Virus record (IMG/VR): IMGVR_UViG_3300042519_000334
Span: 1 to 61,636 of that record
Reading direction: 5' to 3' (one strand)
Length of the DNA stretch: 61,636 nucleotides
Source of the DNA: a virus
Shown: positions 20,100 to 53,118 of the stretch, one piece after another
Numbering within the stretch: position 1 is the stretch's first letter
Layout of the letters: every line of letters begins with the position of its first letter
Program-made: the position numbers and the translations under genes
The notes under the pieces: generated by a model
Seen by the model: the letters and a program-made list of their open reading frames with translations, nothing else
What the model was told of the DNA's origin: nothing
Databases searched by the model: none

Positions 20100-21455
20100 C
20101 TATTCCACGCCGAGGTCGCCCTTCAGGCCAGACGAGTTTGGAACTGCAATGTTAGAAGCAATAGACCTCATATTGTCATACATACCTCTAGATATCAACT
20201 CAGACTCAATCCCACGCCTTTGCTCACCATTTATCGTTCCAGTATATGACTCCTTCTTTGTTTCGGCCATATCTAATGGTCCAGTCGCTTTTATGATTTT
20301 GTAACTAACTATTGTTCCATTGGGCGCAATAGATAAATCAGTTAAATACAAATCGTCTTCTCCTGTTATTTTTATAGGATTATTAGATAAAGCGAAGGTC
20401 GCAGCCTTTCTCTGCTTGCCAGTTATCTTGTCGGTAACTGTCTCAATCTTTGACGTTCTAATTACCCCAGCAACCTCGAGCTCTGCTTTTGTAGGCTTGG
20501 ATTTTCCGCCACCGCCGCCGCCGCCTCCAGTGACCTGAGCAGATGGACGCTGAGACTTAATGGCCTCTGAGTATGTTTTCTCAAAATCCTGAAGTGCGGC
20601 CTCCATAAATGCGGGCTCTTCTTTCATTCTGCGCTCGATTTCGGCAGCATCAGCGAATCCCAATCTATTCTTGTCAAGGTTGTTAGTTTGTGCATACCAA
20701 CGAGTAGCAATCATACGCTTGATTTCTGGGTCGGACTCATAGCGCATTTTGAGTTGTGCTACGCCCTTCTCTACGGCAACATTCTCGTTATATGTAGTGC
20801 CATTGGCACCATCAATACGGACACCAGCTAACGTGTAGATATTCTTGGCGTCTTGCTGTGCTACTGCTACTGGGTCGACAAACTTGATGTTCGGGTCAAC
20901 TTTGTCTAGGGAGAACGAGTTGTATGGGTTCTGCTCTTGCTTAAAATAAACTGATTGAGACAATGGAACCATAGCCCCGTCTGGCTCCTTAACCATAACG
21001 ATACCGTTCTCAATCTTAGTCTCCATACGTCCGCTAGTAAATTCAGAATACTTCTGCTTAGCAATATCTGGTGTATCTAAGTATCCCACACCCTTAGATG
21101 CGTTCATTCTGTTAATCTCATCTGTGGCAGTTGCTGACACACTAAGACCTATTCCTAAGGCTTGATTAAACTGAGCTCTGGTTGCCTCCATCTTGGCCTT
21201 AGCTTCCTGAGAGCCACTCGTCTCAAATTCAATGGCAGACTCCTTCCAAGCGTTGTACGATGCTTGTGTAGCATCCTTGTACTTACCAGCAAGCTTGTAT
21301 TGGTTCTCGACGAACTGTTTGTCAATACCCATAGCCTCCGTCAACTTCTGCCGCTTCTCTGCCTCCTGCTTACGCTTCTCGGCAGCTTGGGCTTCCATTG
21401 CGGCTCCTTGAGCCGCCCATTCGGGTACTTTGAATACTGTAGTGCTTAGAGCCAT
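20100..21455 (-). CDS. putative internal virion protein, 451 aa
   Basis: Unrecognised protein. The N-terminal 100 residues are Ala/Glu/Lys-rich and helical (EAQAAEKRKQEAEKRQKL), the middle is mixed, and a run of eight or nine glycines (about residue 310) forms a flexible linker to a beta-rich C-terminal domain. It lies between a glycine/alanine-rich membrane-active protein and the giant ejection protein, the position of internal core/ejection proteins in podoviruses. It shares its boundary base with the upstream gene. Role inferred from context only. Confidence 0.6.
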   Translation of the reverse strand: MALSTTVFKVPEWAAQGAAMEAQAAEKRKQEAEKRQKLTEAMGIDKQFVENQYKLAGKYKDATQASYNAWKESAIEFETSGSQEAKAKMEATRAQFNQALGIGLSVSATATDEINRMNASKGVGYLDTPDIAKQKYSEFTSGRMETKIENGIVMVKEPDGAMVPLSQSVYFKQEQNPYNSFSLDKVDPNIKFVDPVAVAQQDAKNIYTLAGVRIDGANGTTYNENVAVEKGVAQLKMRYESDPEIKRMIATRWYAQTNNLDKNRLGFADAAEIERRMKEEPAFMEAALQDFEKTYSEAIKSQRPSAQVTGGGGGGGGKSKPTKAELEVAGVIRTSKIETVTDKITGKQRKAATFALSNNPIKITGEDDLYLTDLSIAPNGTIVSYKIIKATGPLDMAETKKESYTGTINGEQRRGIESELISRGMYDNMRSIASNIAVPNSSGLKGDLGVE

Positions 21456-22273
21456 TACTTCTCGAACTTCTTAATTAAACTCTTCACGTATGCGTGAAGT
21501 TTCTCTTTATCTCCTGCGCTTGTAAACTTCTTGATGTTAGACATCTGAGTAGGGTTGAAGATGTATTCTCCACCAGTCATCTCGCCAATCTTGGCTCCGT
21601 CCTTCATAATATCGATAGGATTCTCTTTGTGAGAGAACTTACCCGGGGTCTTCTCAATCTTTCCGCCTTTAGCATTGATAGGGGTTGAAGGGGTTGGAGT
21701 GGTTTTGTCACCACCTAATTTAGCACCAGCTAATGACATACCAGCACTACCTAGCGCACTAATGCCTCCAGCGATGTTTTGCACAGCCGCCTCCTTAGCA
21801 GCTTGAGCGAAGCCAAGCTCCTGCTGGTATCTTCCCTCTTTGCGACCCATAGTTGCTTCCTGAGCGCCAGCAAGCTGAGATAGCGCTGCGGTTTGACGCT
21901 GCTGTTGCATATCAGCCATACTCTGCTGCTGTTGAGCCGCACCCTCAGTAAGGGCTCCGAGACCGCCAAGCAGTGCACGCCCACCTGCCGCGCCAAGAGC
22001 TTGAGTTCCACCAGCTAGAGCACGATTCACGTTCTCCATCTGACGGTTCATAATGTTTTGGTCGTAAGACTCTTTGTAAGCCTTAAAGTATTCAGATGGA
22101 GTGTCGAGTGATGGTGCCGACGCTTTAACTCGCTCTAGCTCTTTATTGGCCTTTTTGTTTGCGGCAATACCGTAAATCATTTGGCCAATACCAGCAGCAC
22201 CCTGAAGGGCTGCCCCAGCGATGGCGGCTCCACCGACTGCGTAAATCTTCTTATTTGACTTCTTGGACTTCAT
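21455..22273 (-). CDS. putative internal/ejection protein with hydrophobic helices, 272 aa
   Basis: Basic N-terminus (MKSKKSNKKIYAVGG), then an Ala/Gly-rich hydrophobic stretch (about 12-40), a long Gln-rich coiled region (AAQQQQSMADMQQQRQTAAL), another hydrophobic AG-rich segment, and a Lys-rich C-terminal domain containing GGEYIFNPTQMSNI. Such amphipathic proteins next to tail genes are often internal proteins that enter the host membrane during DNA delivery. The -7 box TATCTTTG ends 4 nt before the ATG, so the mRNA is predicted to be leaderless. Confidence 0.6.
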   Translation of the reverse strand: MKSKKSNKKIYAVGGAAIAGAALQGAAGIGQMIYGIAANKKANKELERVKASAPSLDTPSEYFKAYKESYDQNIMNRQMENVNRALAGGTQALGAAGGRALLGGLGALTEGAAQQQQSMADMQQQRQTAALSQLAGAQEATMGRKEGRYQQELGFAQAAKEAAVQNIAGGISALGSAGMSLAGAKLGGDKTTPTPSTPINAKGGKIEKTPGKFSHKENPIDIMKDGAKIGEMTGGEYIFNPTQMSNIKKFTSAGDKEKLHAYVKSLIKKFEK

Positions 22274-30410: not shown

Positions 30411-30435
30411 TTTAGTATATGTTAGGCGTTAGACG

Positions 30436-31611
30436 TTAAAATCGAAATCGCATCATTGAGTCAGACTCTCCGATGATTTGGCGAAGCTGCTCCTCTACAT
30501 TGTTACCCGACTGTACGTTTCCTACGTTAGGTGTATTCACCTTCACGTTTGCGGCAGTCTCTACAACCTTGCGCTGTCCATCGCTCATACCTTGCTGATA
30601 AACAGCCTTGACAATTTCGTCAATGTTATCAACTACAGTACGATGCATATTGAACATCTCGTGGTTCCAGCTTCCGTCGCGGTCGACATACTGGTCAAAG
30701 TAACTCTCTAGATTAGCGTTTTTAGATTTGAGTGTCTCACGATACTTGTCGCCAAGTCCGAAGGTAAATGTCTTCTCGCCCGGAAGCTCGAAATCAATAC
30801 CGTCAAGAGCGTCAGCTTCTTGCATCATAGTAGATACCCACTGCTCGTCAACAAACGATTCGACTTGCGGCTCTTGCCCAGCAGTCCTTTCGACTGGCTT
30901 GAGGTAGTTGCTGCGTAGCCCATCAATCTGCTTTCTAGCGTTACCTGCGTCAATCTTTAGCTGAAGGGTCGCCATCTTCTGCTCCTTCTCATCTAGGAAT
31001 TCGCTGTCAGTCTTGTACTTCGCCGATACAAGCATTTCAACTTCATCCCGTGACAAGTCTGGAAAGTCGTTCTGCATCTGGAGCTTCACTACTGATAAGT
31101 CGTCCATTTCAGACGGATTCAGTGACTGGTATAAGAACCAATCTTGTGGGTCGCGGCCAGTTTCTTGAACAAACTTCAGAATAGGCTCAAGCCTCTCATC
31201 GATTGTCGCTGGTTGTTCTAAACGTGCGAGGATGCTATCCAAGTCAAGACCTACCTGCTCCTGCAAGTAAGAATTGACGAACTGGTTAACCTCCTCGTCC
31301 GTGAGTTCGTCGGTGGTTGATTCGTCAGAATCTCCCGTGTCTTGCTGACGATATACGTACCTACTGTCATCAGTTGGTTCTGAGTCGTCGGTAGCGACGG
31401 GCTCAGTTGGTTCTGATGGTTCGGTAACGCTTTGGTCAGCGGTAGAACCTTCGTTGCTGTCATCGGTAGCAACGTCACCGTTTGTGTTATCGGGCTCGAC
31501 AATTGTCGGCTCGATTGGTTGTTGGTCCTGAGAAGGCTCAGCGGGTTGGTCAACAATGTTGAGACCCATATCCCTCACAAGGTCCTCAAGGCTTGAAATA
31601 CCATCGGCCAT
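30436..31611 (-). CDS. scaffolding protein
   Basis: 391 aa, highly acidic and low-complexity in the first 110 residues (repeats of PSQDQQP, VATDDS, EPTDDS), then helical with a coiled segment (KEQKMATLQLKIDAGNARKQI) and a C-terminal helical, slightly basic end (EEQLRQIIGESDSMMRFRF) of the kind that binds the capsid shell. This composition, directly before the major capsid gene, is the typical scaffold signature. A -7 box TAATTTTG lies 24 nt upstream. Confidence 0.75.
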   Translation of the reverse strand: MADGISSLEDLVRDMGLNIVDQPAEPSQDQQPIEPTIVEPDNTNGDVATDDSNEGSTADQSVTEPSEPTEPVATDDSEPTDDSRYVYRQQDTGDSDESTTDELTDEEVNQFVNSYLQEQVGLDLDSILARLEQPATIDERLEPILKFVQETGRDPQDWFLYQSLNPSEMDDLSVVKLQMQNDFPDLSRDEVEMLVSAKYKTDSEFLDEKEQKMATLQLKIDAGNARKQIDGLRSNYLKPVERTAGQEPQVESFVDEQWVSTMMQEADALDGIDFELPGEKTFTFGLGDKYRETLKSKNANLESYFDQYVDRDGSWNHEMFNMHRTVVDNIDEIVKAVYQQGMSDGQRKVVETAANVKVNTPNVGNVQSGNNVEEQLRQIIGESDSMMRFRF

Positions 31612-31635
31612 AATAAGTTGAATTAAAGTTCGTTA

Positions 31636-31643
31636 CAAAATTA
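31636..31643 (-). promoter_or_regulatory. late promoter -7 box upstream of scaffold and capsid
   Basis: TAATTTTG on the minus strand, 24 nt before the scaffold start at 31611. It fits TAnnTTTG; no -33 match is obvious. Confidence 0.5.
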
Positions 31644-31665
31644 TCGAGACTATCTCACGCTAAAG

Positions 31666-31697
31666 TTTGCATATGTGAAAACTTATTCGTATATTTG
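31666..31697 (+). promoter_or_regulatory. promoter of the secreted-protein moron
   Basis: TTTG (31666-31669), 20-nt spacer, TATATTTG (31690-31697). The upstream 16-mer GCTAAAGTTTGCATAT is identical to that of the promoter at 53182, pointing to one common regulator or origin. It drives a rightward gene inside the leftward block. Confidence 0.8.
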
Positions 31698-31715
31698 ACT
31701 CAACAATTAAATCTA

Positions 31716-32045
31716 ATGAATATGAAAAACGCTCTTTTAACCGTCCTAGTAGCCCTATCTACTTCTGTTTTTGCTCAAGAAGCACCTACTGTGTTTCAAG
31801 GTGAAACATTTGAAAGATTAAGCGATAATCTTATTGTTTTCACAGAGAATGACGGCCGCATCTACTCAAAAATATCAGAATGCGAAGTGATTGAAACCAA
31901 AAAGTTTAAAAGACATCACTTAGTAGCTGAAACTCGAGTTATTGGTGGAGTAACTGTTGTAACGGTGATTGACACAAAAACTGGAGGCAATCCACTAGTC
32001 TTTAAATACTCTCACTACGTGGGTGAAAAAAAGAAAGGGGCTTAG
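31716..32045 (+). CDS. secreted moron-like protein, 109 aa
   Basis: Signal peptide MKNALLTVLVALSTSVFA followed by QEAPTV (cleavage after VFA), then about 90 residues of beta-rich mature protein (GETFERLSDNLIVF, HHLVAETRVIGGVTVVTVID) and a Lys-rich tail. Predicted periplasmic or exported. It is transcribed against the surrounding structural genes from its own promoter and ends in its own terminator, the architecture of a moron. A role at the host envelope, such as superinfection exclusion, is possible but unproven. ATG at 31716; 31722 is also possible. Confidence 0.7.
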   Translation: MNMKNALLTVLVALSTSVFAQEAPTVFQGETFERLSDNLIVFTENDGRIYSKISECEVIETKKFKRHHLVAETRVIGGVTVVTVIDTKTGGNPLVFKYSHYVGEKKKGA

Positions 32046-32056
32046 GCCCCTTTTTT
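32037..32056. terminator. terminator closing the moron (works on both strands)
   Basis: GGGGC-TTAG-GCCCC (32037-32050) followed by six T on the plus strand. On the minus strand the same stem is followed by a T-rich run, so it would also stop the leftward transcript from the 32059 gene. The stop codon of the moron lies in the stem. Confidence 0.85.
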
Positions 32057-32058
32057 AT

Positions 32059-32394
32059 TTACATTACTTTCTTAATCGTCTTTGGCTTGATTGCCGCATA
32101 CTTCCCGTGGTATTCTTCGGTTGATGCTGGTGTCTGAGTTTTACCCATTCCTCCAACAGCTTCTTGCTTAGCAGCCTTTAGGTTCGCTGCAATCTTTGCT
32201 TTCTGACGATATTCCTCGGTAGCTTGACCACTAGTGGCTCTCATATTTGGTTTACCTCCAGATGCTACAGCAACTTTATTAGCTTCTTTTGTAGCCGCCA
32301 CTTCTTTAGCGTACATTTCTTTTCTTCGTTGAGCTTTAACTTCTGCCTCAACTCTAGGTCCTTTGCCGCCTTCGGCGTATTTTCTTGCTTTCAT
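32059..32394 (-). CDS. small basic protein, 111 aa
   Basis: Very basic and Ala/Lys-rich (MKARKYAEGGKGPRVEAE..., YRQKAKIAANLKAAKQEA), largely helical, without hydrophobic segments. No family recognised. It lies at the end of the lysis/structural cluster with its own -7 box (16 nt upstream) and ends just before the terminator shared with the moron. It could bind DNA or RNA or be a minor head protein. Confidence 0.6.
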   Translation of the reverse strand: MKARKYAEGGKGPRVEAEVKAQRRKEMYAKEVAATKEANKVAVASGGKPNMRATSGQATEEYRQKAKIAANLKAAKQEAVGGMGKTQTPASTEEYHGKYAAIKPKTIKKVM

Positions 32395-32410
32395 CGTTAG
32401 AAACTTTGTA

Positions 32411-32418
32411 CAAATATA
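32411..32418 (-). promoter_or_regulatory. late promoter -7 box upstream of the 111-aa basic protein
   Basis: TATATTTG on the minus strand, 16 nt before the start codon at 32394. Confidence 0.5.
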
Positions 32419-32430
32419 GAAATCAATCAG

Positions 32431-32715
32431 TTACCACTTCACGCGGTCAGCCCAGTAGGCTGCACTCATCTTACCCTTAGCGATGTTCTTAGCGTGACGT
32501 GCCTTAAAGCTAGCACGCTTCTTAGCTCTAGCAGCAGTAGGATTACTCTCGGTTACGGTATCAGCACCCTTCTCTCCGAAACGGATGAGCTTAGTCTTAT
32601 TCCCGTCCTTAGCTAATACGATGTGAGACTTCTTAGGATGTGAAGGCGTTGCCTTTGCCTTATTGACGCCAGCAAGGCTGTGCTTCTTAATTAGGCTCTT
32701 TACTCTATTGTCCAT
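32431..32715 (-). CDS. small basic phage protein, 94 aa (SHIVLAKDGNKTKLIRFG family)
   Basis: The core SHIVLAKDGNKTKLIRFGEK plus the tail KRASFKARHAKNIAKGKM then SAAYWADRVKW is a family I recognise from many marine and freshwater phages, sometimes annotated as a DUF; no function is established. Strongly basic, probably DNA-associated. Overlaps its upstream neighbour by one base, so it is translated with the spanin-like and membrane proteins before it. Confidence 0.75.
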   Translation of the reverse strand: MDNRVKSLIKKHSLAGVNKAKATPSHPKKSHIVLAKDGNKTKLIRFGEKGADTVTESNPTAARAKKRASFKARHAKNIAKGKMSAAYWADRVKW

Positions 32716-34457: not shown

Positions 34458-34856
34458 TTAACATCCACGAACAGCTGTTATCTTGCCAGCACTATCAATC
34501 TCATAGACTGATGAACCAGACTTCCACCAAAGTCCACCTCCGTCAAACGAAGAAGACAGCGTGTTATCAACGTAAAGCGTTACGTTTACCGCTAGTGAAG
34601 TAGATGATGAGTACAGAGTGATTGCGTCATATGCTGAGGAACAAGCTTCGGCCCAGTCTCCGTATCCTTGCTGTCCGTCTCCCGCCAAGAACGTGTAAGC
34701 TGTCGCTGCGGAGAATCCATAGAACTCACTCATAGCGTCAGGAGAAGACTTACTAGCCAGAGAGGATAGGGTACGCAGTGAACTGTTCGCCTGCGCTTGC
34801 CCTAGCTCTACCCTGATGTCGTTGATACTTATAGCTCCACTACTTTGTAAGGCCAT
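34458..34856 (-). CDS. small tail/fibre-associated structural protein, 132 aa
   Basis: Begins MALQSSGAISINDIRVELGQ, an N-terminus common to a family of small phage structural proteins (ALQSSGAIS-x-x-DI), followed by a Ser/Thr-rich beta domain (YGFSAATAYTFLAGDGQQGY) and a hydrophobic C-terminal hairpin ending in RGC. Start at 34856, overlapping the end of the fibre gene by 17 nt; the frame is open to 34880. Probably a fibre or collar component. Confidence 0.65.
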   Translation of the reverse strand: MALQSSGAISINDIRVELGQAQANSSLRTLSSLASKSSPDAMSEFYGFSAATAYTFLAGDGQQGYGDWAEACSSAYDAITLYSSSTSLAVNVTLYVDNTLSSSFDGGGLWWKSGSSVYEIDSAGKITAVRGC

Positions 34857-37800
34857 TGAGCTGAGCTTTAAGTTCTTCAATCTGTTCTTGCTGCTCCTTC
34901 ATACCTTCAATCAAGAGACCGATGAGCTTCTCGTAGCGTACTGCAAGGTAACCCGTGTCGTTAGTCCTAACGGCGGATGGCATAACGCCTAACACCTGCT
35001 GTGCTATGATACCAGTGTCGTGTCCTTCGTGTCCGTGTGCCTCCTTATGCTCTGGCTTCCAGTCAAACTCTACTCCGGTTAGTGACTTCACTTTATCAAG
35101 TGCGTTCGCTATGGGGGTGATGTTTTCTTTTAGTCGCTCATCTGATGAGGAGTACGCTACGATATCGTTGGATGCGTCAATACGTCCTGCGGTCGCTGAT
35201 GGCGCTATGTTGACACCTAGTGCCACTGCGTTTACTAATACCTTCTTGTTGAGGTTGATTTGGTCAACAGCACCTGCTGCGATAACGAGCTGGTTAGAAG
35301 AGTTCGTGAACATTGCACTAACTGATGAACCGCTAGTGTTATGAATGCGATAGCCCTTGGTATTATCAGAGTGATTGTTTACCAGTATAGTCGGAGCAGT
35401 CGTGGTATTAAATGTTACGTTATCCGAAGTGCGAACGTATTGGTTCATATTCGGTGCGTAATCATTTAAGTTTTCTGTGCTCCAGAAGGTATATGGTCCA
35501 ACAAAAGTTCCACCCTGTAGCCTTGAATACTGAGGAGCACCCCAGAACGGCATAATGATGGTCTGATTGTAGTATGTAGCACCATCGCCGTGGTTTGAGA
35601 TAAAGTATCCAGCCCAGCCACTCTGACCAGCAAATGTTCCTGACGATTGGTAATAGGTCATATTACCACTGCCATAGCCTACAATGTCAAGTGCTGATGA
35701 GCGACTAGACGAGCTAGAGCTTCCAGCACTAGTAGCATAGTTAACCGATTGGCTTCCAATGTTTCCAGAGTGAATTACTGTACGCTCAGTACCGCCACCA
35801 GTTGAATTGGCTGAAATGTACATCTCACCACCGTACCATCTAAACTGCCAGCCAGCATTATTATTGTGAAACCCTACCTCGTTGCCATTTGCCATTACAA
35901 CAACATTGCTTCCAGTAAATCGGATTCCGTGCCACCCATCTTTAGAACCAGTCACTTGAAGCGAACCGTATGAACCAGCATTCGGTTGAAGATGAACACC
36001 AACAGCCCCATCTAGATATAATGAACCCACATAATCAACAGAACCTCCATTCATATGAAGACTCTTGCTGCCTCTTGAGCGTATATATGACCCTTCCGTC
36101 ATATACCAGCCTCCGCCCCAACCGAATCCTATTTCTTCGTCGGTAAGGAATGTGGATGTACCACGTCCAATTACAATAGCATCGTTATTGTTTGTGAGCT
36201 GTATAGAGCCATTGATGAACACACGGTTGTTCGTTGTTGTTCCGTGAACAACACTACCATTGTCGTTTACGGTATGCTCAGTAGCTCCATTTACGTTTAC
36301 AAATCCATCTACTTTTAAGTTGCCAGATGAATAAGAGTTTCCTCTAACATCTAATGTGTATGCTGGCTCAATAACCGTTGGATAAGTTCCAAGGCTACCA
36401 ATGGCAACGCCTGTGCTAGTCATACGAACTAACGTCTTACCATTGTATCCACCTATGCCATTGTGCGGATTATAGCTAGTGTTACCAAATTCTGCGGTAT
36501 TAGAGAATCCAATGTCTAATCTAGTACCAGGTCCATTCGTTCCGATTACCCATTGATTGCCTTGATATCCATTGTGAACAAACTGAATAGTCGGACCGTG
36601 TACTCCGTTGCTAGTTACAGTATGGTCAAGCGTTAATACTGGATATTGACCACGTTGATATATTACTGGTCTCTTATTAGAGTCAATAAGAGTATATGGA
36701 GTTGTAGTTACGTTTTCACCAACGATGAATCTACTACCATTAGTCGAATCCCATCTAAATGCACCAATGGTTGTGTCGTTTGATACAAAGTCTATGGCGC
36801 CGCCGCTTGTGGCCATTGAAAGTGTTGAGCTGGCATACACACCTCCCCTGCTCCAGGCCGCACCAAGTCTGACCTCACCAGTGTAAGACTCTGGGTTGTT
36901 TACATAAAGGTTTCTTGTGCCGTCAAAGTATGCAACCTTATTAGTTGTATTGCCTCGACCAAAACCACCTAATGTGCTAGCGTCTCCAGCAGAAGCAGCA
37001 TAGTTTACCGATTGAGAACCGATATTTCCAGTGGTAATCATCTCAACCCATCCAGATGTAGTCGTATCCCACTTACCTCTGAGCCAGTATCTGTTATCGG
37101 TGGCGTTGGCCGCACCGACCATCATCCAACCATAACCAACGCTTGATGTTGCATAATGTTGACCAGAAACAATACCCTGTGCGTGAACATATCCAGCACC
37201 TTGAGGGTGGTCGGTTCCCTCACCCCAGATGTCCCAACCAGAAAAGCCACCTTGCCAAGCATTCGCCCAAGTTCCGTGGTCTTTTGCCCATCCATTTGTA
37301 CCAGTCCAATATCCTTGGTCTGAAGAATAACTAGTTCTATTTGTCCAGTACCTTGGCATATTCCATCTAGCCCTTGTAGCAGTGTTTAATTGATTAAGGT
37401 TAGATGTACCGTTAGGGTCTAAGTAATATCCAGTATCATTAGAGTCGTAGAATATGGGTGCTCGCAATGAACCAGATGCGATAACGGTTCCTGCCGTATC
37501 TACAGTTAGTTTACCAGCTCCAACATTAAAGTTCCCACCAGAGCCGTTGTGATATTGTACATATAGCGTTGCTGAACCAGAACCATAATATGTATTTAAT
37601 TGGTCTCCACCAATAAATGATGTCTTATAGTTTAAGTCTGGCGCATATGTTCGGAACGCTACTTCTCCAGCGTTAAACCAGTGTCTCTTTATTGAGTTGG
37701 TTGTAATATAAAATGTACCAGCTCCAGCAACATACATTGTAATATCAGCAGCACTTCCGCTATGAGCCCAGTCATCAAGACCAAGACCTCCACGGAATGT

Positions 37801-37902
37801 TGTTCCATCATAAAAACGAAAAGCTGCACCATTGACATTAGTGTCAACATATCCAGATGTATACAGTCTACCGCTTACGTTGGTACTTAAAAGATTTGCC
37901 AT
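34840..37902 (-). CDS. tail fibre/spike with C-terminal S74 chaperone, 1020 aa
   Basis: Nearly all beta and Gly/Ser/Thr/Asn-rich. It contains repeated modules, for example two copies of GNIGSQSVNYA followed by a SAG linker (about residues 295 and 715). The last about 110 residues, from SSDERLKENITPIANALDKV through GHDTGIIAQQVLGVMP to a terminal coiled coil, form a peptidase S74 intramolecular chaperone, which folds trimeric fibres and then self-cleaves just before the SS-D-E-R-L-K motif (Ser/Lys dyad). A receptor-binding role at the cell surface is expected. A His-rich insert (HKEAHGHEGHD) is present. Confidence 0.9.
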   Translation of the reverse strand: MANLLSTNVSGRLYTSGYVDTNVNGAAFRFYDGTTFRGGLGLDDWAHSGSAADITMYVAGAGTFYITTNSIKRHWFNAGEVAFRTYAPDLNYKTSFIGGDQLNTYYGSGSATLYVQYHNGSGGNFNVGAGKLTVDTAGTVIASGSLRAPIFYDSNDTGYYLDPNGTSNLNQLNTATRARWNMPRYWTNRTSYSSDQGYWTGTNGWAKDHGTWANAWQGGFSGWDIWGEGTDHPQGAGYVHAQGIVSGQHYATSSVGYGWMMVGAANATDNRYWLRGKWDTTTSGWVEMITTGNIGSQSVNYAASAGDASTLGGFGRGNTTNKVAYFDGTRNLYVNNPESYTGEVRLGAAWSRGGVYASSTLSMATSGGAIDFVSNDTTIGAFRWDSTNGSRFIVGENVTTTPYTLIDSNKRPVIYQRGQYPVLTLDHTVTSNGVHGPTIQFVHNGYQGNQWVIGTNGPGTRLDIGFSNTAEFGNTSYNPHNGIGGYNGKTLVRMTSTGVAIGSLGTYPTVIEPAYTLDVRGNSYSSGNLKVDGFVNVNGATEHTVNDNGSVVHGTTTNNRVFINGSIQLTNNNDAIVIGRGTSTFLTDEEIGFGWGGGWYMTEGSYIRSRGSKSLHMNGGSVDYVGSLYLDGAVGVHLQPNAGSYGSLQVTGSKDGWHGIRFTGSNVVVMANGNEVGFHNNNAGWQFRWYGGEMYISANSTGGGTERTVIHSGNIGSQSVNYATSAGSSSSSSRSSALDIVGYGSGNMTYYQSSGTFAGQSGWAGYFISNHGDGATYYNQTIIMPFWGAPQYSRLQGGTFVGPYTFWSTENLNDYAPNMNQYVRTSDNVTFNTTTAPTILVNNHSDNTKGYRIHNTSGSSVSAMFTNSSNQLVIAAGAVDQINLNKKVLVNAVALGVNIAPSATAGRIDASNDIVAYSSSDERLKENITPIANALDKVKSLTGVEFDWKPEHKEAHGHEGHDTGIIAQQVLGVMPSAVRTNDTGYLAVRYEKLIGLLIEGMKEQQEQIEELKAQLNGLTK

Positions 37903-37903
37903 A

Positions 37904-40900
37904 TTACTTGTTTTCTAACTTGTTTACTCGTTCCGTTAACTCTTGAACAGCCTTCAGCAAAATTACGCTTAGGCGTTGGTATTGGATACCTTGAGGCTGC
38001 CCTGTCTCGTTGTACGTTACAACCTCTGGGAACAGCTCTGCTACCTCTTCTGCAATCAAACCAATCTCCTCCTCTTGTGAGGCAATCTTGGTGTAGGTCA
38101 CAGGATTCAACTGCTCGACCTTAGCGAGTGCTGGTTCAAGCGGTTGGATGTTCTCCTTGAAGCGTATAGACGAGTTCTCCGTGAACGTACCACCGATTGT
38201 GAGATTTCCTCTAAAGTATGCGTTTCCATTTGCTAGGCTTATGTATGCCTGAAGAACAGATGAGCCACCACCAACAAAGCCAATACTATTAGCGGGAATA
38301 TCTCCCACTGCTGAGTCTATTTGACGATGATAAATACCCCAGTTACTTCCAGTATCTGCGCTGTCTAAGAATATCCAAGCATCTCTGTCGTTAGGTTGAC
38401 TATACAGGAATACATTCGAGGATGGGTTTACGGTAGTGTAGTTGTTTAACACTAATGAATTACTCCCAATAAATCTATTAGCAGTAACAGAGCCACCCGT
38501 TAAAACATTACCACTTGAATATTCTACGCCAAAATATTCATTATTTCCACCGTCAACAAATTGCCATCTCCAACCCCCATTTTCATTAGTTCTAATCCTA
38601 TATCCGAGATTCCCAGTTCCTGCAGTATTGTAAACTTGAAATCTTCCTTGAGTAGTTCTTACGTCAACATTGGCAGCTGTAACAGTTACTCCACCAACGG
38701 AAATTGCGTTAGCGGTTGTTGCCCCCCGGCCAGTTACTGAGTTTAGTGTATCCGTTTCGGTATACCCAGTAATGTATCCAGCTGGGTTAGAATCAGAGTA
38801 TGCGTTTCTCCAAACTACAGTATCTCTGTTCGAGTAAGAAGAAACATCATTTGTCCCAGTAATAGACCAACCTTCGCCATATGAGCCGCCATCAGTTGAA
38901 TTATATCCTAACCATAGGTCTCTTGCAACAATTATGGGATATTGCCAAGAAACACCAGAAATAATAAATGCGGTATTACCAATACTGTTTCTTGAAACCT
39001 GAATTGTTGGCTTATACTGAGGGTTAGTTCCGTGAGCTTCAAATCCTTCAAATCCACCGTTTGATTCTGGATTCCAGTACCCGCCTAGGTCAACCTTTGT
39101 TTTGCTATTCTTATCGTAATAATTACCAAATATCTCGATGGTAAAACCACCCATTTGATACTCATCCTGAGGTACATTAGTCTCAATAATGTAGTATGTG
39201 TATCCTGAACCATTGTCTGATTTTGCTGCCAAAACACCAGAAGCTGTTTTTACAGGATTAAAACCATCAGACGTAATTCTTTTTTTAATTACAGCAGCCG
39301 CATCAAACGACAAACTACCGCTCATCGTATCTCCAGATGCGTTTACAAACCTAGAATCAGATTCTGTTTCGGTGTAATACCTATCATCGTGGTTGTGTGA
39401 AGCCGCAGCGTAAGTACCAGATGTAACACTAAATGTTGTTCCTGTAAGAGTAAGGCCAGTACCTGCTGAATAAGTAGTGTTGGTATCAGTGTCGGTGGAA
39501 GAAATAGTTATAGTTCCTCCCGACTTAGTAATCGTTGTTGCACCGCCTCCCCTGAGTTCAATATTTCCGGTTGATAAATCACCGTCTATGCCCACTGAGG
39601 TTACAGTATCGGTGTCGGTTGCACTTAGCACCCCGTTGCTGATGCTCAGATTAGTTCCTACTTTGATTCCTCCCAAAACCGTTGAAGTTGCTGTAGGTAA
39701 AGACTCAAGATAGCGACCATCAAGGTCTACCGTTACAGTTCCTAGGTCTTGCTGTGTTAACGTGAGTACACCAGTAGTGGTATTAAAAGATGCGCTATTA
39801 ATCTTGTCGTTGTACGCAGCATCCCAGTTAGATTTATTGTAACCACCAATAGCTTCAGCACCGCTAAAGAAGTCATCAATCTCTCCCTCGTTGTAGAAGT
39901 TTGCATTAACCCAAGTCTCAGTGGCGTATCCATTAAGAGCAGTTGAAGTAACATATGTGTTTGAGTCAACTGTTCCGTTAGCCTTTAAGAACTGAGATGA
40001 TGTTCCAGCCGGAGTCTTGAATCCAGCGAACGTAATCTTAGCATCAGTATCAATATAACCCTGCTCATTCCCCCCCCATCTAAAAGAGTAAATCTTATTG
40101 GCTGGGTCTCCTTGGTCTGGTTGTAGGCTACTGCTTGTGTCTGCGTTTGTAATCAACAACGCTGTTGACGAAAATGATGTGGCGTTGGCTGCTCCGTTTA
40201 CGTCAAGTTTTGCCAATGGACTAGTCGTCCCAATACCGACTCTTCCATCCCCCCTGATAAACATTAATGCATTAGAATTGTATCCGGAATTGTAAAGACT
40301 TCCGAATACCATACTAGTCATAGTGCTTCCGTTGTATTCTGTATGGATTTTACCAGTTACATTCGCAGTGTCGTGCCAAACTATACCACCCCTAGGAGTT
40401 GTGCCTGTATAAGAAACGCTAAGTCTTACCAATTCATCAGTAGTTGTGCTGCCTTGACCTACTTGAAGCAATGCCCCCGGCGCCGCCGTACCAATGCCGA
40501 CTCTATTGTTTATTGCATCCACAACAAGCGTATTAGTGTCTACAGTAAGACCTCCAACTGTAATAGCATTCGTGGTGGTTGCCCCCCTCACCGTAATAGA
40601 GTCCAGCGTATCAGCCTCAGCAGTCAGGAAGTTCGGGGTCCAGTTCTTCCAGTAACCATCCGTGTCCCTACGAAGAAGCTGTCCAGTGGCGGGAGATGAA
40701 ATCTGAACATCGTGAATCTCATCTATCTCAATACCATTCTGAACCTTAACGAAAATCTCTCCGTTGTTCTGCTGAACTCTAGTTACCACACCGAGGTATA
40801 CCAAGTGCAATGGTGACGTTGGCTTGTTTAGCAATCCAAAGATTAGGTTGCCGTTAGCACCGAGCCATACGGGGTCACCAGCGGTTGCCGTGGACGTGTT

Positions 40901-41491
40901 TAGGCCAGCGAGCAATCCCTCCGTTACAACAAAGATTTGGTCGTTGATAGCCGCAGTAGATGCAGCGAGACCCATAACCTTAGATGATGTAGCCTCCGAT
41001 GCGTTAGACGCAAGGCCAACAATCATATTAGTTCCATCAGCTCCAGTCACATAGACCGCCTGACCTTTTGTAATCGCAACTCCAGCCTTAACTAAGTGCT
41101 GAACCTTAGACACGTACTCAACGGTAGACAGCGTGGTGTTTACCCAAGCGGTTCCGTTGTACTGAAGAATCTGTCCTGCCGTTGCGGTGGTAATCGTAAC
41201 GTCACCTAATGCGTCAATAGATGAACCAGTCGTAAGATAGTTGGGGCTCCAGTTATACCACACCGGGTTAGGGTCCTCTGACCCTACGGGAATGCCGTAG
41301 CGAAGCAACTGACCAGTGGATGGTGAGCTGATTACAACGTCAGTTAGTGCGTTTAAGTTTGTTGAGCCAGCACTAACACTACCCCAGTAGACGGCACCAT
41401 TGCCATCAGTCGTCAACACCTGACCATTTGCTCCATCAACAAACGGCAGGGTGTATTCCGTGTTGACGTTAATCTGAGATAAAAACTTCAT
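37904..41491 (-). CDS. tail fibre with C-terminal S74 chaperone, 1195 aa
   Basis: Second S74-type fibre. The C-terminal SSIRFKENIQPLEPALAKVE through EIGLIAEEVAELFPE and a final coiled coil is the chaperone. The body carries repeated units: GATTTNAITVGGLTV (about 315) and GATTANAISVGGVTV (about 935), plus LTSITATG-like collagen-free beta repeats. The N-terminus MKFLSQINVNTEYTLPFVDG is a short attachment region. Adjacent to the other S74 fibre with only one base between; the two probably form alternative or stacked parts of the adhesion device. Confidence 0.9.
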   Translation of the reverse strand: MKFLSQINVNTEYTLPFVDGANGQVLTTDGNGAVYWGSVSAGSTNLNALTDVVISSPSTGQLLRYGIPVGSEDPNPVWYNWSPNYLTTGSSIDALGDVTITTATAGQILQYNGTAWVNTTLSTVEYVSKVQHLVKAGVAITKGQAVYVTGADGTNMIVGLASNASEATSSKVMGLAASTAAINDQIFVVTEGLLAGLNTSTATAGDPVWLGANGNLIFGLLNKPTSPLHLVYLGVVTRVQQNNGEIFVKVQNGIEIDEIHDVQISSPATGQLLRRDTDGYWKNWTPNFLTAEADTLDSITVRGATTTNAITVGGLTVDTNTLVVDAINNRVGIGTAAPGALLQVGQGSTTTDELVRLSVSYTGTTPRGGIVWHDTANVTGKIHTEYNGSTMTSMVFGSLYNSGYNSNALMFIRGDGRVGIGTTSPLAKLDVNGAANATSFSSTALLITNADTSSSLQPDQGDPANKIYSFRWGGNEQGYIDTDAKITFAGFKTPAGTSSQFLKANGTVDSNTYVTSTALNGYATETWVNANFYNEGEIDDFFSGAEAIGGYNKSNWDAAYNDKINSASFNTTTGVLTLTQQDLGTVTVDLDGRYLESLPTATSTVLGGIKVGTNLSISNGVLSATDTDTVTSVGIDGDLSTGNIELRGGGATTITKSGGTITISSTDTDTNTTYSAGTGLTLTGTTFSVTSGTYAAASHNHDDRYYTETESDSRFVNASGDTMSGSLSFDAAAVIKKRITSDGFNPVKTASGVLAAKSDNGSGYTYYIIETNVPQDEYQMGGFTIEIFGNYYDKNSKTKVDLGGYWNPESNGGFEGFEAHGTNPQYKPTIQVSRNSIGNTAFIISGVSWQYPIIVARDLWLGYNSTDGGSYGEGWSITGTNDVSSYSNRDTVVWRNAYSDSNPAGYITGYTETDTLNSVTGRGATTANAISVGGVTVTAANVDVRTTQGRFQVYNTAGTGNLGYRIRTNENGGWRWQFVDGGNNEYFGVEYSSGNVLTGGSVTANRFIGSNSLVLNNYTTVNPSSNVFLYSQPNDRDAWIFLDSADTGSNWGIYHRQIDSAVGDIPANSIGFVGGGSSVLQAYISLANGNAYFRGNLTIGGTFTENSSIRFKENIQPLEPALAKVEQLNPVTYTKIASQEEEIGLIAEEVAELFPEVVTYNETGQPQGIQYQRLSVILLKAVQELTERVNKLENK

Positions 41492-49475: not shown

Positions 49476-49526
49476 TGTAATGAAAAATGTATGAAATTTG
49501 CTACGAATTTACAAAACAAATACAAT

Positions 49527-49967
49527 ATGAGACGTGGAGCCAACTCCAGACGTATGCGGGAGTATGCGATTCTACCGGCCAGAGATATAGCACGTAACTA
49601 TCTCAAGTACCTCCGTCACGTACAGTCTGATGTATGTCAGAAGTTTGAACTCACTCCAAGTCAGTTTCAGTTCCTGCTATTCATCTATGACCTAGAGTTC
49701 TTCACTCTGATGTATGCCAGAACACACTTTGCGGCCATATCAGACAACAAGATGCGACTTCTCTACACTAAGCCACTGCTGGATGCTGGTATTATAGATG
49801 TGTACGTCAATAAGCACAGCCTTAAGAGTGACGTACGTCAGATGTTCGGGATATCGAGCAGTGAGGGATACGCCGCTAGGTATGCGCTCACCCAGAAGGG
49901 GAGACTGCTCGTTCAGAAGATTTACAGGAAGCTGGAGGGCCGTGAGGCTATCAATGCTGACGAATGA
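49527..49967 (+). CDS. winged-helix (MarR-like) DNA-binding protein, 146 aa
   Basis: A lone rightward gene within the leftward block. A basic N-terminus (MRRGANSRRMREYAI) is followed by a winged-helix-like region: FELTPSQFQFLLFIYDLEFF, then DNKMRLLYTKPLLDAGIID (recognition helix) and a wing with TQKGRLLVQKIYRKL. It is divergent from the terminase-side gene at 49475 and convergent with the 58-aa gene it overlaps at its end. A regulator of the late transcripts is a reasonable guess. The start at 49527 follows an A/T-rich leader; the upstream open frame from 49389 lies over the opposite gene. Confidence 0.65.
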   Translation: MRRGANSRRMREYAILPARDIARNYLKYLRHVQSDVCQKFELTPSQFQFLLFIYDLEFFTLMYARTHFAAISDNKMRLLYTKPLLDAGIIDVYVNKHSLKSDVRQMFGISSSEGYAARYALTQKGRLLVQKIYRKLEGREAINADE

Positions 49968-50127
49968 CCTTGAATGGCATCTCCATCGCAGCGTCGGTGT
50001 GCGGGACGAACTCGCCCGTGTGCTCCATCAGGAAGTAGCGTCCACCCTTACTCATCCAGTGGTAGCCCTTCGGTGCTTTAACCATAACCTCATTGGGTCT
50101 CTTCAGGTCTGTACGCTTAGCTTTCAT
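49951..50127 (-). CDS. small phage protein, 58 aa (KGYHWM...FKV family)
   Basis: MKAKRTDLKRPNEV then APKGYHWMSKGGRYFLMEHT and a C-terminal PFKVIRQH. The KGYHWMxxGxxYxLM...FKV pattern belongs to a family of tiny proteins I recognise in many phages; no function known. The start overlaps the stop of the 127-aa gene (TGATG), and the end overlaps the opposite-strand winged-helix gene by 17 nt. Confidence 0.75.
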   Translation of the reverse strand: MKAKRTDLKRPNEVMVKAPKGYHWMSKGGRYFLMEHTGEFVPHTDAAMEMPFKVIRQH

Positions 50128-50510
50128 CAATTACGGAATTTAGCCGCCCACTCGGCGATTTTCTTGGGTTGTGGTACGAACTGTTTACCGGACTTGTTAC
50201 CCTTAGCTTTTGCACGGTTGGTTGCGGCCTTATCTGCGGCACTCATCGCACTCCACGCAGCCTTGGGCAGGTATCTCTTCTTACCTTCACTTGGCTTGCC
50301 GTCGGAGGTCGTCCAGTCTTGCTTGGTCCACTTAGATAGGCTCGTCTCCTTCTTGGGTCCTGAGTATCCTCCGCCTGACTTCTTGTATCTAAGTACGGCC
50401 AGCTGTGCCTTACGGGCTGACCACTCGCCGGGGTCTCCTCCCTTAGAGCCTGCCTTCACGCTAGCAACGATGCGCTTCCACTTTGCTGGGTCCTTCTTCT
50501 TAGCTTCCAC
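50127..50510 (-). CDS. basic DUF5872-like protein, 127 aa
   Basis: WKRIVASVKAGSKGGDPGEW, SARKAQLAVLRYKKSGGGYS, then LSKWTKQDWTTSDGKPSEGK and RYLPKAAWSAMSAADKAATN. This is a well-conserved basic protein shared by many aquatic phages and some large DNA viruses (the name DUF5872 is from memory). It probably binds nucleic acid; function not established. Part of a run of short, overlapping basic genes behind the amidase. Confidence 0.75.
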   Translation of the reverse strand: MEAKKKDPAKWKRIVASVKAGSKGGDPGEWSARKAQLAVLRYKKSGGGYSGPKKETSLSKWTKQDWTTSDGKPSEGKKRYLPKAAWSAMSAADKAATNRAKAKGNKSGKQFVPQPKKIAEWAAKFRN

Positions 50511-50622
50511 TTCCTAAACGGTTGATAATCTCAAAATTACGAACACCAACAGTTGCTCTGTCGGCACTCACACGCTTGACACCCTTGGTGTTGTTGCCTC
50601 TCTTCTTCAGTGACTTAGCCAT
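50500..50622 (-). CDS. small basic protein, 40 aa
   Basis: MAKSLKKRGNNTKGVKRVSA followed by DRATVGVRNFEIINRLGSGS. The start is 8 nt inside the 59-aa gene and the end overlaps the next start. The longer in-frame extension to 50733 overlaps the 59-aa gene and looks random. Positively charged; role unknown. Confidence 0.6.
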   Translation of the reverse strand: MAKSLKKRGNNTKGVKRVSADRATVGVRNFEIINRLGSGS

Positions 50623-50794
50623 TCCAGTTGATGTAATGTAGGATAATCTTGATGTCTTTGCTCTGGAGGTACTTCCCCTGTGGGATTTCCACCCCGTTGA
50701 AGTAATCATTCGAGTAATCACGAGTGAATGCATTCCACGTATCCTCGTATGGGTTATAGTGGAACAGCCAATCGTTGAATGCTTCGTTCTTCAT
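50615..50794 (-). CDS. small phage protein, 59 aa (WLFHYNPY family)
   Basis: Encodes NDWLFHYNPYEDTWNAFTRD followed by YFNGVEIPQGKYLQSKDIKI. The WLFHYNPYxxxWxAF...SKDI pattern recurs in small conserved proteins of Bacteroidota and aquatic phages. No function known. Overlaps its neighbours by 4 and 8 nt. Confidence 0.8.
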   Translation of the reverse strand: MKNEAFNDWLFHYNPYEDTWNAFTRDYSNDYFNGVEIPQGKYLQSKDIKIILHYINWNG

Positions 50795-51063
50795 TTCTTG
50801 CTTCTGTTGCGTCTGGCCATAATCATACGTGCCTCGTCGTGGTCGTAATCCTTCCCGTCTCCGTTCCCGTATGTCCCGGCGTCTCTATTCTTCTTATTCA
50901 GGAACGCACGGTACTTCTTCCGCTCTTCAGTTGAGTGGTACTTAGTATCGTACGCCTTCTTCTTATCTCTAGCCTCTGGGCTATTGGCGTAGAACTCTGC
51001 GCTCTTACTCTTCCTTGCTTTCACCTTTACCGTTGTGTTTGATGTAATCTTCAACAGCTTCAA
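50791..51063 (-). CDS. small basic phage protein, 90 aa (NGDGKDYDH family)
   Basis: The core AEFYANSPEARDKKKAYDTK, YHSTEERKKYRAFLNKKNRD and GTYGNGDGKDYDHDEARM then RRNRSKK is a conserved basic phage protein; the NGDGKDxxH motif suggests a metal-binding or nuclease-like site (HNH-like), though a full motif is not visible. The first 19 residues overlap the preceding gene in another frame, so the true start may be later. Confidence 0.7.
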   Translation of the reverse strand: MKLLKITSNTTVKVKARKSKSAEFYANSPEARDKKKAYDTKYHSTEERKKYRAFLNKKNRDAGTYGNGDGKDYDHDEARMIMARRNRSKK

Positions 51064-51226
51064 TGCTGTGCTCCATTACGGAAATCTTAGATGCCATCCA
51101 CGGGTCTAGATTAGACTTAGCGTCGATGTTCTCTAGGATGTCCTCAATACAGTCCTTGATGCTCATAAGCTGGGTGATAATCATCTCACCGTTCGGCTCC
51201 TTAGATGTATACTTCCTAGGTTTCAC
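51005..51226 (-). CDS. hypothetical helical protein, 73 aa (GTG start)
   Basis: Starts at GTG 51226 in a GTGA overlap with the upstream gene. Two long helices (EMIITQLMSIKDCIEDILEN, WMASKISVMEHSIEAVEDYI) suggest a helical hairpin, ending in a charged tail. No family recognised. Confidence 0.6.
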   Translation of the reverse strand: MKPRKYTSKEPNGEMIITQLMSIKDCIEDILENIDAKSNLDPWMASKISVMEHSIEAVEDYIKHNGKGESKEE

Positions 51227-51342
51227 TTCTTCTTCTTTTTAGAAATTTTACTCCAATCAAACTTAACCAACTTCGCTCTGTTGTCAGGGCGAACCTCAGC
51301 CTTCTGGCCTACGGGGTCAACTGGTCGTTTAACTGCTATCAT
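51223..51342 (-). CDS. small basic protein, 39 aa
   Basis: MIAVKRPVDPVGQKAEVRPD then NRAKLVKFDWSKISKKKKK. It begins right after the amidase stop (one base between) and ends in a GTGA overlap with the next gene. Strongly basic tail. The tight coupling is the main support. Confidence 0.6.
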   Translation of the reverse strand: MIAVKRPVDPVGQKAEVRPDNRAKLVKFDWSKISKKKKK

Positions 51343-51343
51343 C

Positions 51344-52012
51344 TTACAGTCCCTTAAGCATTTGAATCATCTCGGGCTGTGGGAAGATATCAATCTTATC
51401 CTTACGTACTGAGTTGTGCGTATATACTCCTGCGACACCATTCAGTGCATTCATAGATACATCCCACATATCCTCCTCACGATAGTCCAGCGGGATATCA
51501 TAAATCTCATTCCAGTACTTCAAGAGATTCTCAACACTGCGAATCTGCTCATCGGTGTATCTGTGGAAGTGGATATGCTTCTTGTACGGGGAATCAAGGG
51601 TACATACATCCTCCTTGGCCACCTCACGATTGACGTAGTTGTAGTACTTACCGCCACGCTCCTCTAGCTGTCCCCAAGCACAAATCTCAATACCGATAGA
51701 AATCTTATCGAGCACCTTGTGTGGGACACCGTACCCCTTGAAGATTTCAGCCTTAGCACCTAAGTGGTAGGCCCAGTACTTAGATGGGAATCCCTGCACG
51801 ATGCGTCCATCTCCTTCCTTAGCTCCCTTTCCGCTGATACAAACACACGTTGCGATACGACCTCTTGAGTCGGTATCCCACTGCTTGAATGTAGATACCC
51901 CACTTGAGTTACCTGCGGTGTGGTGTAGGTAAATCTGCTTCTTCGGAGCAGCCTCCTTGATGTACTCGGTAGGTGAAAACTCTACCTGCAAGATGTCCTT
52001 GAGAAATTCCAT
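51344..52012 (-). CDS. endolysin: N-acetylmuramoyl-L-alanine amidase
   Basis: 222 aa, Amidase_2/PGRP fold that cleaves the bond between MurNAc and L-Ala. Zn-binding and catalytic features: IYLHHTAGNSSGVSTF with the first His (about 29), WAYHLGAKAEIFKG (His about 82), ISIGIEICAWGQLEE (conserved EICAWG), and THNSVRKDKIDIFPQPEMI near the C-terminus (third ligand region H-x-x-x-x-x-K). No signal peptide, so a holin (candidate at 33446) is needed. First gene of the leftward block; its -7 box ends four bases before the ATG. Confidence 0.9.
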   Translation of the reverse strand: MEFLKDILQVEFSPTEYIKEAAPKKQIYLHHTAGNSSGVSTFKQWDTDSRGRIATCVCISGKGAKEGDGRIVQGFPSKYWAYHLGAKAEIFKGYGVPHKVLDKISIGIEICAWGQLEERGGKYYNYVNREVAKEDVCTLDSPYKKHIHFHRYTDEQIRSVENLLKYWNEIYDIPLDYREEDMWDVSMNALNGVAGVYTHNSVRKDKIDIFPQPEMIQMLKGL

Positions 52013-52016
52013 AGAA

Positions 52017-52024
52017 CAAAGATA
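52017..52024 (-). promoter_or_regulatory. promoter -7 box of the amidase operon (leaderless type)
   Basis: TATCTTTG on the minus strand, then TTCT and the ATG at 52012. It is the leftmost outward promoter of the gene-free region. Confidence 0.6.
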
Positions 52025-52072
52025 ATGATTGTATACGATAGGTGATTATGTCGGTACTATGTATTACACACT

Positions 52073-52104
52073 ATTGATTATGTCATTTTTTTTGTGTAAC
52101 TTTG
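52073..52104 (+). promoter_or_regulatory. Bacteroidota-type promoter reading into a gene-free region
   Basis: ATTG (52073-52076), 20-nt spacer, TAACTTTG (52097-52104). No protein gene follows for about 1.8 kb, so it probably drives a non-coding RNA. Confidence 0.6.
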
Positions 52105-52110
52105 CCCCTG

Positions 52111-52335
52111 TAGTGCAAGGGCACGCAGACGAACAATAGTATACGCAACGTAACATAGACGTAACTACGGACCGATGCATAGGCGGACAGCCCAAAAGCG
52201 ACAGTCCGCCTCTGCAAAAATAGGGCGACAGCCACTACGCAAAGCACTTGAATACAGGAGGCGTGTGTCCAAGCAGTTCCTATCCACAAGAATACTCATT
52301 TAACTGCTCGTATACAGTATTCTACTGTTGTTTTC
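52111..52335 (+). ncRNA. candidate structured non-coding RNA, about 220 nt
   Basis: Begins at the expected start of the promoter at 52073. It contains GCCC/GGGC just at its 5' end, a 12-of-13 bp hairpin TGCATAGGCGGAC / GTCCGCCTCTGCA (52176-52216), and a final stem GAATACT / AGTATTC (52290-52322) followed by a T-rich stretch that could end it. No plausible ORF. Unknown class; it may be an origin-linked RNA, for example a primer or regulator. Confidence 0.5.
52280..52288 (+). other. DnaA-box-like site
   Basis: CTATCCACA, eight of nine matches to TTATCCACA, inside the gene-free divergent region. The phage encodes a DnaA domain-IV protein that could read such a box. A single site is weak evidence. 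Confidence 0.35.
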
Positions 52336-52569
52336 ACGTTTTAGAAACACATATAGTAGTAGGTGGGTGATGGATACTTTTTTAATTCGTACGAGTTCTA
52401 GGTACCGTGGGGAGAATTATACAAGAGCGACGCTGACGAACCAACTCCGAAACCGAATCGCAAACCCAACCCCCTCGTAATCAGCGCGTTACGTTCAAAC
52501 TTTTTAGCGTTTTGTCTATAGGTAGGCGCTCAAGTAGAGTATCTATTCTATGTCGGCTAGGCGTTCGTT

Positions 52570-52631
52570 TACTGAACGTATTCAGGTCGTTTGCTGTAGA
52601 AAAAGGTAAACTTTTCGTGTACTGAACGTAT
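52570..52631 (+). repeat. direct repeat pair TACTGAACGTAT
   Basis: Copies at 52570-52581 and 52620-52631, start-to-start distance 50 nt (about five helical turns), so both would face the same side of the DNA. Candidate protein-binding iterons. Confidence 0.6.
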
Positions 52632-52937
52632 GCTTTTTTTCGTGGGTGTGGTCGGTCGTAGACCTGCATCAATCCCCTCTCTACTTTTCCCCACTTTTCA
52701 CCACTCGTTCCCTTCATCTTTCTTAGTACGTTTCGCTGTATGTTTCGTGTATGTTTATTTAGTATACTATAGTAGACAGGGCCTCAGTTAACGATTACGG
52801 CAGGAATTATACTAATAGTTTAAACAGCGGAAAAAGTATGCTTTTGCCCGTATTTGGTACATATTGGGTCGGGTTAGGCCGTTGGTGTTCAGTCAGTTAG
52901 GTGCTGAATTACGTACATACGATTTCTTAAATGACGC

Positions 52938-53118
52938 TGATTATCAGGTAGTTACGTTAACTCGTTGTGTTTCAGTATGTTGTAACTTGCTGAGTTTTAG
53001 CCTGTTAGTAACTAATTGATTCTCAGCGGTTTACTAACTCGTTGATTATCAGGTAGTATTATTTAGAACGATTCTAAATTTCATCTCGAAGCAACTTTTT
53101 TTTTGGTGCTGATTATCA
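52938..53118. repeat. iteron-like repeats TGATTATCA
   Basis: Exact palindromic copies at 52938-52946, 53043-53051 and 53110-53118, each followed by a similar AGGTAGT/AGCAGTT stretch, plus a degenerate TGATTCTCA at 53017-53025. Flanking TAACTCGTTG is also repeated. Likely operator or origin sites for a phage protein. Confidence 0.6.

Follow-up and report, generated by a model that had tools for sequence, protein, structure and literature searches.

The complete IMG/VR virus record IMGVR_UViG_3300042519_000334 (61,636 bases; hereafter the window) carries a small gene for a secreted-type protein that opposes its neighbors within the late block, in a slot beside the scaffold-type gene. Comparison of this slot among related contigs demonstrates that it is a swap site organized as a two-leader exchange cassette: the mature domain of the secreted protein and the body of an adjacent, convergently transcribed basic protein are replaced as one block, and the N-terminal leaders of both proteins are kept. 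The leading guess for the role of the secreted protein is superinfection exclusion.

A swap site between two leaders

The comparison set comprised 80 capsid relatives of the window. Two of these, L028 and L071, have no scaffold gene and were dropped, leaving 78 loci among which L045 is counted though it is too short to judge. Nine contigs with capsids at least 94% identical to that of the window are termed close sisters. The open reading frame (ORF) at 31722–32045 is located on the plus strand between minus-strand genes at 30436–31611 and 32059–32394, and is the lone opposing gene described in the initial annotation. All nine close sisters possess one opposite-facing slot gene with the same promoter and a signal peptide. 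Three unrelated mature domains were distinguished in this group, the window included: type A in the window and L009, type B in seven contigs, and type C in L008. In the wider set, an opposite-facing exported gene is present at 28 of the 78 scaffold loci and contributes seven further sequence families. The term moron which was applied originally to the gene suits the wider family with its 28/78 occupancy, as most distant relatives lack the gene; in the close clade the locus is fixed (9/9) and its content changes. Universal conservation of the gene at this site as a structural component was not found, as the close sisters keep its presence and not its sequence. A structural role for the protein is unlikely given the export signal, the early-type promoter, and the unrelated mature domains of close sisters.

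Mapping of the mature-type labels on the capsid tree, which omits L020 because its capsid gene is cut, required 13 changes compared with a minimum possible value of 10 and with 27.4 for shuffled labels. Type B alone accounted for four changes, three of which are forced by well-supported branches. Judged from this tree, the mature types are clustered, yet have been replaced repeatedly. A type B secreted gene also is found elsewhere, at 5004–5186 of the related phage L101, ~5 kb from the terminase gene, where it runs off the contig end.

Pairwise alignments delimited the exchanged segment. The window and L020 are 94.8% identical at 30428–31782 and 98.7% identical at 32376–32452, and nothing between is alignable, which defines an exchange block at 31783–32375 that has no DNA similarity to L020 between flanks of 95–99% identity. 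Base 31782 is at the signal peptide cleavage site, and base 32376 is where the MKARKY codons end in the convergent gene, which starts at 32394. The L003 and L008 sequences part within the signal peptide, at codon 7, and rejoin where MKARKY ends, and comparison of L005 with L007 revealed a right breakpoint only, at the end of MKARKYAQGG. As the breakpoints sit at the ends of both leaders, the block contains the 3′ parts of the two convergent genes. As the block between the leaders does not align, the mature domain and the neighbor body are exchanged together.

The mature DNA of the window and L020 is 48% identical, compared with a mean of 45% and a maximum of 49% after shuffling. Beside the mature part, identity between the two is 95% in the scaffold gene, 99% upstream, and 93% in the signal peptide. 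The synonymous difference (pS) between the window and L009 was 0.96 in the mature part, with a nonsynonymous difference (pN) of 0.20, and pS was 0.35 in the scaffold gene; values of pS for L005 and L007 were 0.69 in the mature part versus 0.12 in the scaffold gene. The alleles predate the backbones in which they now reside, and each appears to evolve under purifying selection. That a single allele diverged rapidly in place was ruled out for both pairs by synonymous difference far above that of the backbone. In L020 and L005, an endonuclease gene adjoins the basic gene (phrog_3322 in L020, E = 1e-19), and an endonuclease-like gene is beside the phrog_7595 gene in L029, L036, and L039, with copies other than that of L020 recognized by eye. 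An endonuclease at the cassette edge might drive exchange.

Coupling between the secreted type and the neighbor was assessed with full neighbor bodies from which the leaders were masked. The bodies were related in 12 of 15 pairs from the same secreted family versus 9 of 138 pairs from different families, and at capsid identities of at least 85% in 9/9 same-family versus 2/19 different-family pairs. An earlier test that used the last 100 neighbor residues had yielded 10 pairs related in both proteins, 9 in the secreted protein only, 6 in the neighbor only, and 146 in neither (partial Mantel r = 0.50, p = 0.0002). The full-body test replaced this version and was chosen after its outcome was seen, as the related part of L005 fell outside the last 100 residues; L005, L026, and L020 then were compared directly. 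A collection-wide scan by neighbor body detected the A body in one contig and the B body in eight, and the secreted type matched in 9/9 cases. A leader gene adjoins the slot at 20 of 28 loci with a slot gene versus 2 of 50 without (Fisher p = 3e-10), in a hand count that includes near-identical contigs, applies no phylogeny correction, and has L045 among the 50.

Signals of the secreted gene, its neighbor, and the genomic setting

The secreted-protein gene (31716–32045, plus strand) has in-frame ATG codons at both 31716 and 31722, either of which may be the start. A predicted host-type (Bacteroidota) promoter, TTTG-N20-TATATTTG, is located upstream at 31666–31697 on the plus strand. The consensus match proposed initially was upheld, as TTTGCATATGTGAAAACTTATTCGTATATTTG at this position fits TTTG-N17-25-TAnnTTTG. 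Six such sites are present in the window versus 1.45 expected and a maximum of four in 100 shuffles, and when the gene's own upstream region was shuffled 1000 times, the promoter score of 10/10 never recurred. The four sister upstream regions that were scored (L003, L005, L008, and L009) also gave 10/10, and L007 and L020 are full matches too. The promoter resembles a predicted early promoter at 53182–53212 (plus strand), a likeness pointed out at the outset that extends to 23 of 31 positions with one gap and a 9-base run at either end. This match was equaled by 126 of 5000 shuffled spacers in the window, whereas 24/31 positions match in L005 and L009, which 2 and 3 of 5000 shuffled spacers equaled, respectively.

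Of 75 predicted gene starts, 7 have the TATATTTG box no more than 60 bases away, compared with 0.3 expected. Both promoter elements are found in the cassette promoter, in the early promoter at 53182, and ahead of the gene at 1484. On late genes TATATTTG occurs without TTTG at −33 (minus strand, e.g., 20087, 28095, 32411, 34442, 43441, and 45914), and this form is a candidate late promoter class. The −7 box of this class upstream of the basic gene is at 32411–32418 (minus strand), and the divergent scaffold promoter has the −7 box TAATTTTG at 31636–31643 (minus strand). The presence of both elements and the likeness to the early promoter, versus the TTTG-less late boxes, support placement of the cassette promoter in an early class recognized by the host polymerase, from which we infer that the cassette gene is expressed early.

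A predicted bidirectional hairpin terminator is located between the convergent genes at 32031–32056, in line with the clean terminator of the initial annotation. The segment folds at −19.8 kcal/mol (z = −3.7; 0/200 shuffles as stable), overlaps the stop codon, and codes for the C-terminal residues KKKGA. Among 15 loci examined, 13 have a similar hairpin 3′ of the slot gene, despite the changing gene. As a consensus scan returned 11 terminator-like sites in the window versus 6.9 expected, the assignment is based on conservation and not on the scan. With its own promoter and terminator, the gene has the attributes of an independent transcription unit inside the late block, as proposed originally, and the early-type promoter and exported-type product likewise are borne out at the sequence level.

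The conserved leader of the secreted protein is a Sec-type signal peptide encoded at 31722–31778 (plus strand), MKNALLTVLVALSTSVFA followed by Q, for which the suggested cleavage after VFA was endorsed by inspection. The protein has a single hydrophobic stretch followed by a site of the signal peptidase I type, again by inspection, and is not of the inner-membrane type. A lipobox is absent and the mature window protein starts with Gln, as is the case for the sister proteins; otherwise unrelated genes of the same slot encode this export pattern as well, again with Q at +1. The type A mature domain (31779–32042, plus strand), which sequence comparison identifies as exchanged between phages, is AT-rich with a GC content of 38% that is in the 3rd percentile of the genome.

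Neither Pfam nor PHROG yielded a match for the secreted protein of the window. A search of 50,697 phage records with types A and B was negative at E values up to 10, and scans of bacterial genome contigs revealed no relative. BLAST and profile comparison did not unite the ten mature types in a common family, the best hhalign result being E = 0.012 over 8 columns, and A–G mature pairs with shuffle Z values of 5.4–5.8 were not counted as a relationship. Models had mean pLDDT values of 85 for type B and 61, which is of low confidence, for type A. As far as the order of elements goes, the two models agree (beta-beta-alpha-beta4). Foldseek produced no PDB match at an E value of 0.001 or better for A or B and no viral match for B, and the best Z values from VIA-align 2, 6.7 for B and 3.8 for A, were shared by many unrelated chains. 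On the basis of these models the mature fold is claimed neither as known nor as new.

Sister comparison shows that the convergent basic gene (32059–32394, minus strand) joins a KYxxGG leader to an exchangeable body. The leader, MKARKYAEGG, is the conserved N terminus of the protein (32365–32394, minus strand). When defined as [KR]x0-2[YF]xxGG in the first 20 residues of ORFs of at least 70 residues, this motif is present in 51 of 1603 ORFs, exclusively on the late strand, compared with 1 to 4 in shuffled N termini. The carriers mostly are cassette neighbors or homologs of the product of 21455–22273 (minus strand), with a few others, e.g., in L073, L080, and L081. The 21455–22273 protein, which has the same leader type, is a predicted virion protein that matches a virion structural PHROG (E = 2e-6) and a structural protein of elemo (E = 6e-4), whereas the match to gp099 of phi38:1 has an E value of 0.10 only. 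The shared leader type suggests that the basic neighbor also is packaged in the virion. For the window basic protein, Pfam gave nothing above the cut-off and PHROG gave no match, and the L022 protein reached only E = 0.03. The basic gene of L007 (222 amino acids) includes a second, internal KTYANGG motif ahead of the type B body, like a module inserted behind the leader.

The host of the window is most likely a flavobacterium because of the capsid and terminase matches, with which the TTTG/TAnnTTTG promoter type agrees. The capsid is 28–35% identical to those of named phages of Flavobacterium, Cellulophaga, and Maribacter, and the terminase is up to 40% identical in Flavobacterium phages and 48% identical in one uncultured record. 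The window and its relatives form a family of podovirus-like phages, probably of marine flavobacteria. The portal, scaffold-position, and capsid genes of elemo and phi38:1 adjoin one another with no slot between, and MW202828 shares this arrangement without the slot. The conserved left flank of the slot is the scaffold-type gene (30436–31611, minus strand), which was called by its position before the capsid gene. The conserved right flank is the phrog_7595 gene (32431–32715, minus strand), recognized by PHROG match and sister comparison. An 82-base stretch of the latter (32431–32512) is 82–87% identical to Lentibacter and Celeribacter phages; a 6 kb query of the phage collection had no other DNA match. 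The fiber genes at 34840–41491, which include one with an S74 chaperone motif, show extensive mosaicism between near-identical sisters. The 49500–53900 region has few convincing genes beyond an amidase gene at 51344–52012 (Amidase_2, E = 3e-11).

Proposed exclusion at phage entry and rival explanations

The interpretation that we prefer, tentatively and at less than even confidence, is that the slot gene specifies an early periplasmic superinfection-exclusion protein which is part of a two-gene exchange cassette and whose specificity follows probable ejected cargo and not a receptor. Host RNA polymerase would transcribe the gene early from its own promoter, and Sec export would release a soluble periplasmic protein of ~88 residues. 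The neighbor with the KYxxGG leader would be a late product that probably enters the virion by packaging. Recombination at the two conserved leaders, the signal peptide and MKARKY, swaps the mature domain and neighbor body as a single block. The secreted protein would act in the periplasm on a step of entry and bar a second phage from the infected cell, with the specificity of exclusion tied to a cargo-type protein rather than to the tail fiber. Exclusion at entry fits a small protein that is exported and probably early, and whose type changes in step with probable virion cargo rather than the fiber. A strict cognate version appears improbable: here, when phages of the same type arrive, the periplasmic protein would recognize their leader-tagged cargo and stop their DNA, the swap block being bounded by export and packaging leaders and the receptor-binding protein being independent. 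As a precedent, escape mutations for P22 SieA map to the ejection proteins gp16 and gp20 (PMC10883804). Cargo proteins of a crassvirus are stored in the capsid and tail (PMC10172136), and a ten-residue leader directs packaging of T4 internal proteins (PMC9026906). T5 Llp illustrates the other route to exclusion, as a small early periplasmic protein that closes its receptor, FhuA, from the periplasm (PMC9586334).

Several observations weigh against the exclusion proposal. Coupling is looser at capsid identities below 85%, with related bodies in 3/6 same-family versus 7/119 different-family pairs, and several different-family pairs (D/F/H and E/G) have body domains in common. Two of the ten families, I and G (the latter by the strict leader rule), are followed by a gene without the leader. 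Promoter matches fall to 7–9 of 10 beyond the close clade. The L005 scaffold promoter, too, carries TTTG at −33, and therefore TTTG alone is no proof of early timing. SieA types that are only 24% identical act alike, contrary to cognate pairs (PMC10883804). Finally, co-exchange could be the mere physical linkage of adjacent convergent genes.

This last argument is developed most fully in an alternative that is possible, but on balance unlikely, in which two unrelated and fast-exchanging accessory genes occupy a recombination hotspot that is bounded by any conserved sequence and helped by homing endonucleases, so that their pairing is functionally meaningless. The adjacent and convergent arrangement, the endonuclease gene beside the cassette in L020 and L005, and the looser coupling of distant pairs accord with this view. 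It accounts less readily for conserved leaders at both ends and for the matching secreted type in all nine body-matched contigs, though hitch-hiking can explain much of this.

More doubtful is that the protein jams a receptor in the manner of Llp and Cor by binding an outer-membrane receptor, e.g., a TonB-dependent transporter, from the periplasm and blocking adsorption. Exchange of the mature domain then would track host receptor variation, and the neighbor would be a passenger. T5 Llp provides the precedent (PMC9586334), and the size, export, and early-type promoter of the slot gene fit. However, the lipobox is absent, and the gene is not beside the fiber gene and is exchanged with another gene. 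Furthermore, the secreted proteins of L003 and L004 are 100% identical and the neighboring genes are 97–100% identical, whereas the S74-type fibers are 35% identical over 1016 columns, with a best local piece of 77% over 222 residues. Because of this contrast, in one pair, receptor masking, as suggested in the initial annotation, is not the simplest reading if tied to the phage's own fiber. Strict coupling to the tail fiber also was ruled out by L003 and L004.

Takeover of the host envelope is doubtful to the same degree. In this case the secreted protein would inhibit a protease, a defense protein, an envelope-stress sensor, or some other periplasmic target that varies among hosts, and the neighbor would be injected and act on the host at entry; variation would follow the host, and no phage would be excluded. 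The early-type promoter, export, and old alleles under apparent purifying selection are compatible with this role, and co-exchange would reflect shared host range or linkage, but no known inhibitor family or fold was matched and no named host target is indicated. An exported lysis or lysis-timing protein is very improbable: the slot gene of L073 and L076 is followed by a same-strand gene, amidase-like by eye, upstream of the scaffold gene with no convergent leader gene, but the window amidase is elsewhere (51344–52012), the promoter is of the early type, and other families have no lysis gene alongside.

Implications and comparison with known systems

If the exclusion proposal is correct, lytic marine phages possess a module for self-recognition that is exchangeable and operates once adsorption has taken place. 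The two leaders would then mark the exchange unit in the sequence, and the cassette would permit a direct test of whether exclusion specificity can be tied to ejected virion proteins rather than receptors. Other phages may be searched for a host-promoter gene with a signal peptide that is convergent with a leader-tagged late gene. Whatever the function, block exchange between two leaders clearly exemplifies accessory-domain swapping in which the address labels are kept. Literature searches found no description of such a two-leader cassette, which is no proof of absence.

Four known systems are instructive. P22 SieA also is a small envelope phage protein that stops related phages via ejected virion proteins, a function which is assumed for the window protein. 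The latter differs in that it is predicted to be soluble and exported rather than an inner-membrane protein like SieA, is encoded in the late block, has swapped mature domains, and is linked to a leader-tagged gene. The Llp lipoprotein of T5 and the Cor lipoproteins of T1 and phi80 are small phage proteins exported to the periplasm, whereas the window protein has no lipobox, is not encoded beside a receptor-binding gene, and is independent of fiber type. The T4 internal proteins, with their capsid targeting sequence, share with the KYxxGG basic neighbor a short conserved N-terminal leader on different proteins, but the leader sequences are unlike and packaging and cleavage of the basic neighbor are hypothetical. 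The T4 internal proteins are not known to have a secreted partner. Polymorphic toxin-immunity systems similarly combine a conserved N-terminal delivery part with an exchangeable C-terminal body and an adjacent partner that is exchanged jointly. In contrast, the genes described here are convergent, the partner is secreted, the locus is in a phage late block, and Pfam and PHROG revealed no toxin domain in the window basic protein. Nevertheless, the hallmark of an exchangeable body that is swapped together with its partner was found in the cassette, both in the pair counts (12/15 versus 9/138) and in the positions of the breakpoints.
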